From positions 1 through 64,000 of the forward strand of contig NZ_BAUX01000021.1 in the NCBI RefSeq assembly GCF_002897035.1: DNA of 64,000 nt, in the 5' to 3' direction. The notes under the pieces are model-generated. The model had not been told where the DNA came from and did no database searches. It saw only the letters and a program-made list of their open reading frames with translations. Source of the stretch: Methylopila sp. Yamaguchi (GTDB taxonomy: Bacteria > Pseudomonadota > Alphaproteobacteria > Rhizobiales > Methylopilaceae). The stretch's first letter is position 1. Every line of letters starts with the position of its first letter. The translations under genes and the position numbers were made by a program. Of the stretch, positions 57,295 to 61,594 are shown one piece after another.

Positions 57295-57656
57295 CTGGCG
57301 TCCCGACGTTAGCGACCGCACAAAGCGCGGCTGATCTTTCGAACACAATGCCTGCTTGACCCCCGTCGTGCCAGACAGGTAAAACACCTAGCGGCGTTAT
57401 GCCGCATAGTTCTTATGTCTAAACCCCTTGCGGCCTGTAATCGCGGCTCCAAATCGCAAGCTGGCTCAGTCAGTTGGCGGCGGGAGTGGCGATCCGATGG
57501 CCGGCGGCGAGAGACGTCCGCCTAAGCAGCTTCGACGCTCAGCTCCGTGATCTGCGCGTCTCAGATATTCGTCTCAGAGGGGGGTCTGCGACATTGCGCT
57601 GCAGCGCAGCGTCCGCTAACCCCATCCGGCGCATACTTCGAAGAGGTCCAAAAGCG
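57295..57656. promoter_or_regulatory. Upstream region of sdhCDAB
   Basis: A 362-base divergent gap. A TTGACC at 57356-57361 and TAAAAC at 57380-57385 are 18 bases apart and form the best -35/-10 candidate toward sdhC, giving a leader of over 250 bases. No convincing gene lies in the gap. Confidence 0.4.
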
Positions 57657-58067
57657 ATGGCGTCGTCGAACGCCGGTTCAAGCCGGCCGCTGTCCCCGCA
57701 CCTCCAGATCTACCGTCCGATGCTCTCGATGATGATGTCCATCGTGCATCGCATCACGGGGGCGGCGCTCTATGTCGGGTCCCTCCTGCTGGTGATCTGG
57801 CTGGTCGCAGCGGCGTCGGGACCTTCGGCTTTCGAGACTGCCCAGTCGATCTACGGGTCGATCCTCGGCCAGCTCGTGCTGTTCGGCTACACCTGGGCGC
57901 TCATTCATCACGCCCTCGGCGGCGTCCGGCACCTGATCTGGGACACCGGCCGCGGCTTCGATCACCAAAGCCGAGAGCGGCTGATCAAGGGCGGCCTGAT
58001 TGGCTCGATCGCTCTCACCGTCCTGATCTGGGTCGTCGTCTACGCGACCCACGGCGCGACGGGCTGA
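57657..58067 (+). CDS. sdhC: Succinate dehydrogenase cytochrome b556 subunit
   Basis: A 136-residue membrane anchor with three helices. RPLSPHLQIYRPMLSMMMSI and VHRITGAALYVGSLLLVIWL are characteristic; the heme-ligand helix is YTWALIHHALGGVRHLIWD. ATG 57657 matches the family start. Quinone is reduced at the interface with SdhD and SdhB. Confidence 0.93.
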   Translation: MASSNAGSSRPLSPHLQIYRPMLSMMMSIVHRITGAALYVGSLLLVIWLVAAASGPSAFETAQSIYGSILGQLVLFGYTWALIHHALGGVRHLIWDTGRGFDHQSRERLIKGGLIGSIALTVLIWVVVYATHGATG

Positions 58068-58078
58068 AGGAGGCATTC

Positions 58079-58453
58079 ATGCGCACCCCTCTCGGCCAGG
58101 TCCGCGGACTCGGCGCCGCCGGCTCCGGCACCGACCATTTTTGGCTCCAGCGGCTGACCGCCGTCTCGAACCTCGTGCTGTCGACGGTCTTCGTCGGGGT
58201 GCTGGTGTCGCTCGCCGGCGACAGCCACGCGAGCGTCGTCGCGACCCTGTCGAACCCGATCGTCGCGATCCTGATGCTGCTGTTCGTGATCTCGGTCGTG
58301 GTCCACATGCGTATCGGCATGCAGGTGATCATCGAGGATTACGTCCATGCGGAGCTGCCCAAGCTGCTTCTGCTGATGGGCAACACCTTCTTTGCGATCG
58401 TCGTCGGCCTGTCGGCGGTGTTCGCGCTTCTGAAGATCAGTTTCGGAGTCTGA
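58079..58453 (+). CDS. sdhD: Succinate dehydrogenase hydrophobic membrane anchor
   Basis: A 124-residue protein with three membrane helices. The N-terminal [26 protein letters not shown] and the conserved helix [18 protein letters not shown] (His, Asp, Tyr) are typical of alphaproteobacterial SdhD. GAAGGAGG-like ribosome site upstream; it begins 11 bases after sdhC. Confidence 0.92.
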
Positions 58454-58457
58454 CGCC

Positions 58458-60290
58458 ATGGCCGACGCCGCGAAGCCAAACGGCGCTCCTGGCCTCAACG
58501 GCCGCGCCTATCCCTTCATCGACCACGCCTTCGACGTGGTCGTCGTCGGCGCCGGCGGCGCGGGCCTGCGCGCCGTCGTCGGTTGCTCGGAAGCCGGCCT
58601 GAAAACCGCCTGCATCACGAAGGTGTTTCCGACACGCAGCCACACGGTCGCGGCGCAGGGCGGCATCTCGGCCGCGCTCGGCAACATGGGCGAGGACGAC
58701 TGGCGCTTTCACATGTACGACACCGTCAAGGGCTCCGACTGGCTCGGCGACCAGGACGCGATCGAGTACCTCGTGCGCAATGCGCCGGCCGCCGTCTACG
58801 AGCTCGAGCATTGGGGCGTGCCGTTCTCCCGCACGGAGGAAGGCAAGATCTACCAGCGCCCGTTCGGCGGCATGACGACCCATTACGGCAAGGGGACCGC
58901 CCAGCGCACCTGCGCCGCGGCCGATCGCACCGGCCACGCCATCCTGCACACGCTCTACGGCGCGGCGCTGAAGGCCAAGGCCGAGTTTTTCATCGAATAC
59001 TTCGCCATCGACCTGATGATGGACGACGAGGGCGCCTGCGTCGGCGTCATCGCTCTCAAGATGGACGACGGCACGCTGCACCGCTTCCGCAGCCACAAGA
59101 CCATCCTCGCGACCGGCGGCTACGGCCGCGCCTACTTCTCGGCGACCTCGGCCCACACCTGCACCGGCGACGGCAACGCCATGGTGCTGCGCGCTGGCCT
59201 GCCGCTGCAGGACATGGAGTTCGTGCAGTTCCACCCGACCGGCATCTACGGCGCGGGCTGCCTGATCACCGAAGGCGCCCGCGGCGAGGGCGGCTATCTC
59301 ACGAACTCCGAGGGTGAGCGCTTCATGGAGCGCTACGCGCCCTCCGCGAAGGACCTCGCCTCCCGCGACGTGGTCTCCCGTTCGATGACGGTGGAGATCC
59401 GCGAAGGCCGCGGCGTCGGCAAGAACAAGGACCACATCTACCTCCACCTCGACCACCTCGACCCGAAGATCCTGCACGAGCGGCTGCCGGGCATCTCCGA
59501 GAGCGCGAAGGTGTTCGCGGGCGTGGACCTCACCAAGGAGCCGATCCCGGTGCTGCCGACCGTGCACTACAACATGGGCGGCATCCCCACGAACTTTCAC
59601 GGCGAGGTGCTGACCAAGTCGAACGGCGACCCCGACACGGTGGTCCGTGGGCTGATGGCGCTGGGCGAGGCCGCCTGCGTGTCGGTGCACGGCGCCAACC
59701 GCCTGGGCTCGAACTCGCTGATCGATCTCGTGGTGTTCGGCCGCGCCGCCGCCGACCGCTGCGCCGCGACCATGGAGCCGAACGCGACCCACCGCGAGCC
59801 GCAGGCCGCCTATTCCGAGCCCGCGATCGCCCGGCTCGACCGCCTGCGCAACGCCTCCGGCGGCACGTCCACGGCTGAGCTTCGTCTTCGGATGCAGAAG
59901 GTCATGCAGTCCAACTGCGCGGTGTTCCGCACCGGCGAGGTGCTGCAGGAAGGCCATGGCCTCATCCACGAGGTCTGGTCCGGCGCGGAGGACGTGCGGA
60001 TCGCCGACCGTTCGCTGGTCTGGAACTCGGACCTGATCGAGACGCTCGAGTTTGACAACCTGATCGCCCAGGCCGTCGTCACCATGGACAGCGCGGTCAA
60101 CCGCAAGGAGAGCCGCGGCGCCCACGCCCGCGAGGACTTCCCGGATCGCGACGACAAGGAGTGGATGAAGCACACGCTCGCCTGGGCGGACGTCGCGAAA
60201 CGGCAGGTCTCGCTCGATTACCGGCCGGTCCACACCTACACGATGACCAACGACATCCAGTACATCGAGCCCAAGGCGCGGGTGTACTAA
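58458..60290 (+). CDS. sdhA: Succinate dehydrogenase flavoprotein subunit
   Basis: A 610-residue FAD subunit oxidising succinate to fumarate. [17 protein letters not shown] binds FAD; the covalent flavin His is residue 62 in [38 protein letters not shown] and the catalytic-Arg region [15 protein letters not shown] are conserved. It starts 4 bases after sdhD. Normally sdhB follows directly; here a foreign-looking gene intervenes. Confidence 0.97.
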
Positions 60291-60307
60291 GAGCCTGGAG
60301 ATCGGCG

Positions 60308-60787
60308 ATGACCTGGGAACGCGCAATCGCCGTCCTCAGCGTTCTCGTCGCCTTAGCTTCCGCCGGCTTTGCGTACCGCGGCCAAATTCGCGTTCAGGAA
60401 TTGGAGCGGGAAGCTCGATATAATCAAGAGCGATTATCTAAGTTGGTGGAGCTCCGTTCTGGTATTCTTAAGGCTCTCTATGAGGCAAACCCTTGCTTCC
60501 AAGCAGCTGGCTTCGATGGCGAAACAACTGAATGCAATCAAAATTCTAAGCTGACCGCAAAGCAATCGAACGAAGCCGTCGGGCAGACGATCTATCGAAT
60601 GCTAGTTAATGCTCGGCCTTACCTCTCTCATCAAGCGCGGAATGAGATTTTCGTTCTTGGTGAGGACGGCACACCGACGCCGACAACAGCCGACAAGATT
60701 ATTTACGACCTGGATGATTATGAACTACTCACACGCGTATCGGAAATAGTAAAGTCGCTCGATAGCGAATTAGAGCGCTGGTCTTAG
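60308..60787 (+). CDS. Membrane-anchored hypothetical protein inserted between sdhA and sdhB
   Basis: A 159-residue product starting at ATG 60308 (GGAG eight bases upstream). N-terminal transmembrane helix RAIAVLSVLVALASAGFAY (residues 5-23), then a charged, probably coiled-coil stretch GQIRVQELEREARYNQERLS to about residue 55, and a soluble C-terminal part with two cysteines (ANPCFQ, TTECNQ). Hand counts of three 60-base lines in 60421-60780 gave 42-48% GC, against about 60% or more in adjacent sdh genes. Codon use is correspondingly A/T-rich. No family recognised; insertion by transfer is likely. Confidence 0.75.
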   Translation: MTWERAIAVLSVLVALASAGFAYRGQIRVQELEREARYNQERLSKLVELRSGILKALYEANPCFQAAGFDGETTECNQNSKLTAKQSNEAVGQTIYRMLVNARPYLSHQARNEIFVLGEDGTPTPTTADKIIYDLDDYELLTRVSEIVKSLDSELERWS

Positions 60788-60808
60788 CGGTAATAAATAG
60801 GAACAGTC

Positions 60809-61594
60809 GTGGTTCAGCTCAACCTGCCCAAGAACTCCCGCATCGTCGGCGGCAAGTCCTGGCCGAAGCCGGCCGGGGCGAAGACCACGACGGAATTCAA
60901 GGTCTACCGCTGGAACCCGGAGGACGGACAGAATCCGCGCGTCGACACCTTCTACGTCGACCGCGAGGACTGCGGCCCGATGGTCCTCGACGGCCTGATC
61001 TACATCAAGTCCAAGATCGACTCGACGCTGACCTTCCGCCGCTCGTGCCGCGAAGGCATTTGCGGCTCCTGCGCGATGAACATCGACGGGACCAACACGC
61101 TCGCCTGCACCAAGGGCATGGACGATTGCGCCTCGGGCGGGACGGTGAAGATCTACCCGCTGCCGCACATGCCGGTGGTGAAGGATCTCGTGCCGGACCT
61201 CACCCAGTTCTACGCCCAGCACGCCTCGGTCGAGCCCTGGCTGAAGACCGACACCCGCGCGCCGGGCGACGAGTGGAAGCAGTCCCGCGAAGACCGCGAG
61301 AAGCTCGACGGCCTCTACGAGTGCATTCTCTGCGCCTGCTGCTCGACCTCGTGCCCGAGCTACTGGTGGAACGGCGATCGGTACCTCGGCCCCGCCGCCT
61401 TGCTGCAGGCCTACCGCTGGCTGATCGACAGCCGCGACGAGGCGACCGGCGAACGGCTGGACGACCTCGAAGACCCGTTCAAGCTCTACCGCTGCCACAC
61501 CATCATGAACTGCGCCAAAGCCTGCCCGAAGGGTCTCAACCCGGCAAAGGCGATCGCCGAGATCAAGGGCATGATGGTCGCGCGGCAGTTCTGA
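60809..61594 (+). CDS. sdhB: Succinate dehydrogenase iron-sulfur subunit
   Basis: A 261-residue subunit starting at GTG 60809. [22 protein letters not shown] holds the 2Fe-2S ligands; [16 protein letters not shown] and [17 protein letters not shown] hold the 4Fe-4S and 3Fe-4S clusters. It passes electrons from SdhA to quinone. The 21-base gap after the inserted gene includes a weak AGGAAC ribosome site. Confidence 0.96.

Follow-up and report, generated by a model that had tools for sequence, protein, structure and literature searches.

Core operons are stock examples of stable gene order. A life-cycle of operons was reportedly described by Price in 2006, and mosaic operons are said to have been described by Omelchenko in 2003. 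Alphaproteobacterial nuo operons contain unidentified reading frames. The case described here is similar, in that small unknown genes lie among respiratory genes and nuo junctions of the genus are open also, and it differs in that 11 of 13 congeners have a filled sdhA-sdhB junction, with enzymes and toxin-like genes among the occupants. Integration hotspots and genomic islands likewise combine one site with lineage-dependent cargo; however, the cargo of sdhA-sdhB usually amounts to one or two genes inside a core operon, and the locus studied here lacks an integrase, a tRNA and any clear repeats at its flanks.

ORFans of E. coli are the subject of an earlier paper (PMC2275313). What ORFans and acquired genes in operons share with the present locus is that a conserved operon contains a short gene that is AT-rich and specific to one species, whereas here one sdh junction repeatedly turns over with unrelated genes and the other two were closed in our survey. 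Titles and abstract openings of the literature matches listed contained no description of the sdhA-sdhB site.

An orphan reading frame in the sdh operon

The window, a 64,000-nucleotide stretch of Methylopila sp. Yamaguchi (source genome of 4.42 Mb, G000), contains sdhCDAB and, between sdhA and sdhB, an open frame of 159 codons that runs from an ATG to its stop on the strand of the operon (Table 1). The gene, its orientation, its own ribosome site and its short spacers had been pointed out in a sequence-only reading, and all of them are present, the ribosome site as a motif read by eye.

Table 1. Features of the sdh operon in the window.
Feature	Coordinates	Strand	Remarks
sdhC	57657..58067	+	start inferred within ORF 57474-58067; translation, agrees with relatives
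sdhD	58079..58453	+	translation and relatives
sdhA	58458..60290	+	stop TAA here, TGA in 12/12 congeners
17-nt spacer	60291..60307	+	GGAG ahead of ATG, ribosome-site-like (by eye)
orphan ORF, 159 aa	60308..60787	+	predicted membrane helix at the N terminus, then a long helix and a helical domain at the C terminus
21-nt spacer	60788..60808	+	AGGA ahead of sdhB GTG (by eye)
sdhB	60809..61594	+	start GTG here, ATG in 12/12 congeners

The mean GC of the orphan is 50.6%, against 68% for sdhA and 66% for sdhB, and the lowest-GC kilobase of the window is 60-61 kb. The low GC noticed earlier is confirmed by these values, although the hand-counted 42-48%, taken from single lines, falls slightly under the mean. 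GC3 is 52%, against 93.5% for sdhA and sdhB, and this deficit is the largest among 49 loci measured, with the doubtful ORF of locus L056 a close second. Codon-position GC (59/41/52%) is coding-like. That the frame is no gene, and merely opened by chance in inserted AT-rich DNA, is hardly credible: there is no homologue to reveal purifying selection, but 159 open codons at this composition have a chance of ~6e-4 (simple iid estimate), the codon positions look coding-like, each end has a ribosome-like site, and a membrane helix and a single-sequence pLDDT of 75 also speak against it. Between 60150 and 60900 we found neither a sigma-70-like promoter nor a terminator-like site on the strand of the operon; the lone terminator-like match was on the opposite strand, 0.8 being expected by chance. 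Transcription of the orphan most likely starts at the sdh promoter, and it would be translated from its own ribosome site into a membrane-anchored helical protein.

The predicted protein has one hydrophobic segment (approximately residues 5-24), in agreement with the N-terminal membrane helix proposed earlier, followed by a charged helix. AlphaFold2, run on the single sequence, gave one helix spanning residues 3 to 60 plus five shorter ones (mean pLDDT 75, pTM 0.61). Positive residues come after the membrane helix, so that the soluble part probably faces the cytoplasm, and the product is probably a membrane-anchored helical protein of this topology. No family or fold could be assigned to it. 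Searches of the orphan against Pfam and PDB sequences, and of Rfam, returned no match, NCBIfam gave the FtsL model alone (14.8 bits, cut-off 50), and the PADLOC models of anti-phage defence genes had no family at E<=1. Fold searches returned 242 matches in the PDB at E<=10 (best E 0.46) and 325 among viral models (best E 0.056), with none at E<=0.001 in either set.

The viral fold search was topped by two uncharacterised siphovirus models (E 0.056 and 0.10; TM 0.52 and 0.49), and PHROGs yielded one weak match, function unknown, with an E of 0.0057 over 20 residues. Together with the low GC and the orphan status, these matches are consistent with a phage-derived gene, such as a moron-like membrane protein, stranded at a permissive spot. 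However, long-helix models may match by shape alone, none of them reached E<=0.001, and viral contigs, plasmids and phages gave no match to the orphan. The locus also has no integrase or transposase ORF (the lone ORF that occupies the gap matches no such family), and clear edge repeats are absent: the search for flanking direct repeats found one 18-nt pair of 72% identity, inside both coding genes and chance-like. We therefore regard a phage origin as unlikely. There is no tRNA within 56-64 kb, and the locus thus shows neither of the marks of a genomic island or integrative element that were looked for, an integrase or transposase in the insert on the one hand and flanking direct repeats or a tRNA target on the other.

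The orphan is present as a single copy in its own genome. It had no relative in 12 congeners, nor in 396 other genomes of the order at E<=1e-3; three weak matches (E 0.003-0.06) were seen among 60 relatives. The species-contig and IMG/VR scans gave no match, and neither did tblastn against plasmids and phages; the contig scans depend on short near-exact stretches, so that remote relatives may escape them. Samples of the class (385 genomes) and phylum (398), which overlap with the order and relative sets, contained a match in one genome besides its own, G646 (E 2.9e-4, residues 16-95, 808-aa frame); this was set aside as a helix match, covering the helix region only. With no homologue and a composition unlike that of its host (GC3 0.52 against 0.94), the orphan behaves as an ORFan. 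Since no source genome was found, the argument for transfer from elsewhere is built on composition and absence. The earlier suggestion of a recently acquired cargo gene is strengthened by the absence of the gene from all 12 congeners (the same gene in most relatives would have spoken against it), by a GC3 far under that of the operon and by intergenic DNA dissimilar to the other gaps.

Occupants of the sdhA-sdhB junction in the genus

Across the 13 genomes of the genus, the sdhA-sdhB gap measures 518, 878, 413, 232, 722, 244, 2306, 258, 249, 242, 242, 23 and 62 nt and is filled in 11, whereas in the same genomes the sdhC-sdhD gap is at most 24 nt and the sdhD-sdhA gap at most 12 nt. Two genomes, G007 and G010, are each 95-96% identical to G000 over the final 900 nt of sdhA, and in sdhB DNA the value is 95%; judged by this sdh DNA identity of ~95%, they are its nearest congeners. 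The occupant is an alpha/beta hydrolase in G010 and a VapD-like gene in G007 (60 bits for NCBIfam VapD against a cut-off of 100, and 23.7 bits for Pfam Cas2 against 23.8). G009 has a PIN-domain protein behind an ORF that was read by eye as antitoxin-like and has no Pfam match. In G004 a polysaccharide pyruvyl transferase is accompanied by another ORF, to which no family could be assigned, and the small ORF of G008 begins, by eye, with a signal-like segment. A coiled coil of 74-81 aa occupies the junction in five congeners, the sister G005 among them.

In G009 (L119:4049-4701) the first 32 coiled-coil residues run in frame into the antitoxin-like ORF, followed by the PIN-domain gene, as if the two genes had been inserted into an earlier coiled-coil occupant. 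In another genus of the same family (G015, L130:4627-5253) the gap has an antisense ORF, which weakly resembles the REase_MTES_1575 endonuclease domain, under the cut-off.

Two bases set G000 apart from all 12 congeners, the final one of the sdhA stop codon and the initial one of the sdhB start codon, as if the exchange had spanned stop to start. The horizontally acquired orphan would have replaced the entire intergenic stretch. The alternative that it is no new acquisition, but a fast-diverged descendant of an older occupant, e.g. of the coiled-coil gene, could draw on the sister species that have this gene at the junction and on the long helix that the orphan also possesses. Against such a descent, the insert DNA had no blastn-short match to other gaps >=60 nt at E<=1, G000 has no match to the coiled-coil profile at E<=1e-4, and GC3 is 0.52 in the orphan and 0.75-0.83 in the coiled-coil genes, which makes it very improbable.

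The sequence-only reading had also considered a modulator of the SDH complex. An accessory or assembly factor of SDH that is restricted to this lineage and was fixed by its action on the complex would fit the shared strand, the tight spacers, the membrane anchor and the position between two subunit genes, as well as the recurrence of certain occupants. Some occupants do persist (an FkbM-like gene at 11 loci, the coiled coil in 5 of 13 congeners), so that a role tied to the operon may exist. However, relatives with unrelated genes at the junction, the nearest ones included, are ~99% identical in SdhA and SdhB protein, two congeners have gaps of merely 23 and 62 nt, and the orphan is unlike the operon in composition. 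Neither conservation with SDH (0/12 congeners) nor a match to an SDH family model was found. The modulator thus fares poorly, and we consider an accessory factor improbable; because unrelated genes often stand at the same spot in relatives, the orphan looks like exchangeable cargo and not like a part of the enzyme.

The junction across the order and in other operons

The assumption that sdhCDAB is normally gapless proved wrong for the order. The sdhA-sdhB gap is often filled and was >=150 nt at 50 of 141 readable loci, a share that is raised because 40 of these loci, all with G handles, were taken from genomes in which no single alignment covered both sdhA and sdhB and are thus enriched for long or frame-shifted gaps. 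By source, 16 of the 73 named loci, which were picked by SdhB similarity, and 34 of the 68 G-handle loci were occupied; among the first 30 relatives, with no gap-based choice, 27 loci were readable and 16 of these were occupied, including ten from congeners. The sdhC-sdhD gap reached 150 nt at 0 of 116 loci (maximum 144) and the sdhD-sdhA gap at 0 of 123 (maximum 140). Where all three junctions were readable (n=116), 35 loci had >=150 nt at sdhA-sdhB, and 0 and 0 at the other two. Gap GC was below sdhA GC in 39 of the 50 occupied loci.

Loci fetched twice were dropped before the 141 (L007-L019, L021, L022, L028, L032-L034, L036 from Methylopila jiangsuensis and L037 from Chenggangzhangella methanolivorans). 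Also dropped were L064 (its counterpart is L140), L066 (from a different genome, likewise occupied, with almost the same cargo) and the loci without a readable SdhA (L031, L041, L044, L107, L133, L138). A check of identical sdhB starts across the 141 loci found no remaining duplicates. One of them, L105, is labelled Rhodobacteraceae. The 1714-nt gap of L081 is due to an early stop within sdhA and stands outside the 50. Gaps >=150 nt without a credible gene exist (e.g. L056, L099, L153).

Cargo was grouped at E<=1e-4. An FkbM-like methyltransferase, found at L052, L089, L101, L145, L154, L172, L174, L027, L029, L141 and L167 (Pfam on L141 only, the others by clustering), is apparently a long-lived occupant. 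PIN-like cargo was found at 4 loci (by Pfam in 3, at L161 by clustering), a small secreted-looking protein at 4 (one tested, no Pfam), VapD-like cargo at 2 and DUF5615 at 2; there were one further pair, many singletons and a mixed group of 11 in which coiled coils and antitoxin-like ORFs fall together. The families represented are PIN, DUF5615, DUF433, alpha/beta hydrolase, PS_pyruv_trans, FkbM, GT25 and SUFU. VapD/Cas2-like genes stand at the junction in two different genera (L117:4270-4638 and L137:4137-4544). Parsimony on a FastTree tree gave 29 changes of occupancy, and 40 when cargo type, as labelled by us, was used.

As a control, twelve nuo junctions were assessed in the same 13 genomes, with the genes named by order and by eye (a family search was made for NuoD only) and the nuoD junctions omitted for a poor gene model. 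The nuoF-nuoG junction was open (>=150 nt) in 8 genomes and had a coiled-coil ORF in 6; two junctions were open in 5 genomes each, two in 4 and seven in 0-2. Many open nuo gaps lacked a credible gene, and several had implausible ORFs only. An apparent opening of nuoA-nuoB in G006 was NuoA itself and was discarded as an artefact. In G000 (L177) and G010 (L179) the nuoF-nuoG gap is 305 nt long, with 48-49% GC and no ORF >66 aa; sisters of these two genomes have the coiled-coil gene there. Thus, junction opening is general in the genus, and sdhA-sdhB has the highest open count among the junctions assessed but is not unique.

A profile, A1, built from the sdhA-sdhB micro-gene of the sisters had 15 matches in 8 of the 13 congeners: 6 at sdhA-sdhB (one a fragment), 6 at nuoF-nuoG and 1 each at nuoG-nuoH, atpG-atpD and metF-metH, the atp and met names being assigned by eye. 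At E<=1e-4 there was no A1 match in G000 or G010, nor to the resembling coils at nuoB-nuoC of G007 and G009. In the order, 38 of 239 genomes matched at E<=1e-5; since scoring was limited to 24 candidates per genome, this is a minimum. Outside the genus 26 loci were fetched, and 12 of these belong to nuo, sdh or atp operons (nuoF-nuoG 5, nuoE-nuoF 1, sdhA-sdhB 1, atpG-atpD 5). The other 14, named by eye from translations, are at sufB-sufC (3), in an amidase-dihydropyrimidinase stretch (3), at pur genes (2), behind an ABC ATPase (2) and behind a ferredoxin reductase-like gene (1), with 3 in no assigned context. Five of the 26 matched spans contain a stop codon, so that some copies may be decayed. 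These 70-80-aa coiled-coil loci (L190-L216 and L223, e.g. L201:1501-1722 at atpG-atpD) span several Hyphomicrobiales families and often lie between subunit genes of one complex; L206 is an exception to this pattern.

Probable cargo at a proposed permissive junction

The orphan ORF, its isolation, its composition and the turnover at its junction are observed directly. In the reading that we find probable, the orphan was horizontally acquired and is cargo on the essential and well expressed sdh operon, neither a subunit nor a regulator of SDH. The sdhA-sdhB junction would be permissive, with lineages repeatedly gaining, swapping and losing unrelated genes there, while sdhC-sdhD and sdhD-sdhA stay closed. 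Co-transcription with sdh, the membrane topology, the transfer from elsewhere and the absence of an SDH role are our inferences.

A further-reaching view, which we put forward as a doubtful possibility, is that sdhA-sdhB of Hyphomicrobiales is a true recombinase-free site of cargo exchange and that the dispersed coiled-coil family serves assembly or minimal hitch-hiking. Unrelated small genes, including toxin-antitoxin-like modules and orphans, would then be swapped cleanly from stop to start, and coiled-coil micro-genes of 70-80 residues would lodge where subunit genes of one complex meet, at sdhA-sdhB, nuoF-nuoG, atpG-atpD and sufB-sufC (by eye). Since nuo junctions open too, the case for a dedicated exchange site at sdhA-sdhB is lowered.

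The junction, more than the gene, is the main point, and the evidence favours cargo over an SDH modulator. One of the three junctions in a TCA-cycle operon varies between close species, and the other two never open in the survey. Nature thus provides an experiment on what makes certain operon junctions receptive to foreign genes and on how the exchange stays clean, and it bears on whether riding on an essential transcript aids the persistence of toxin-like and orphan genes.
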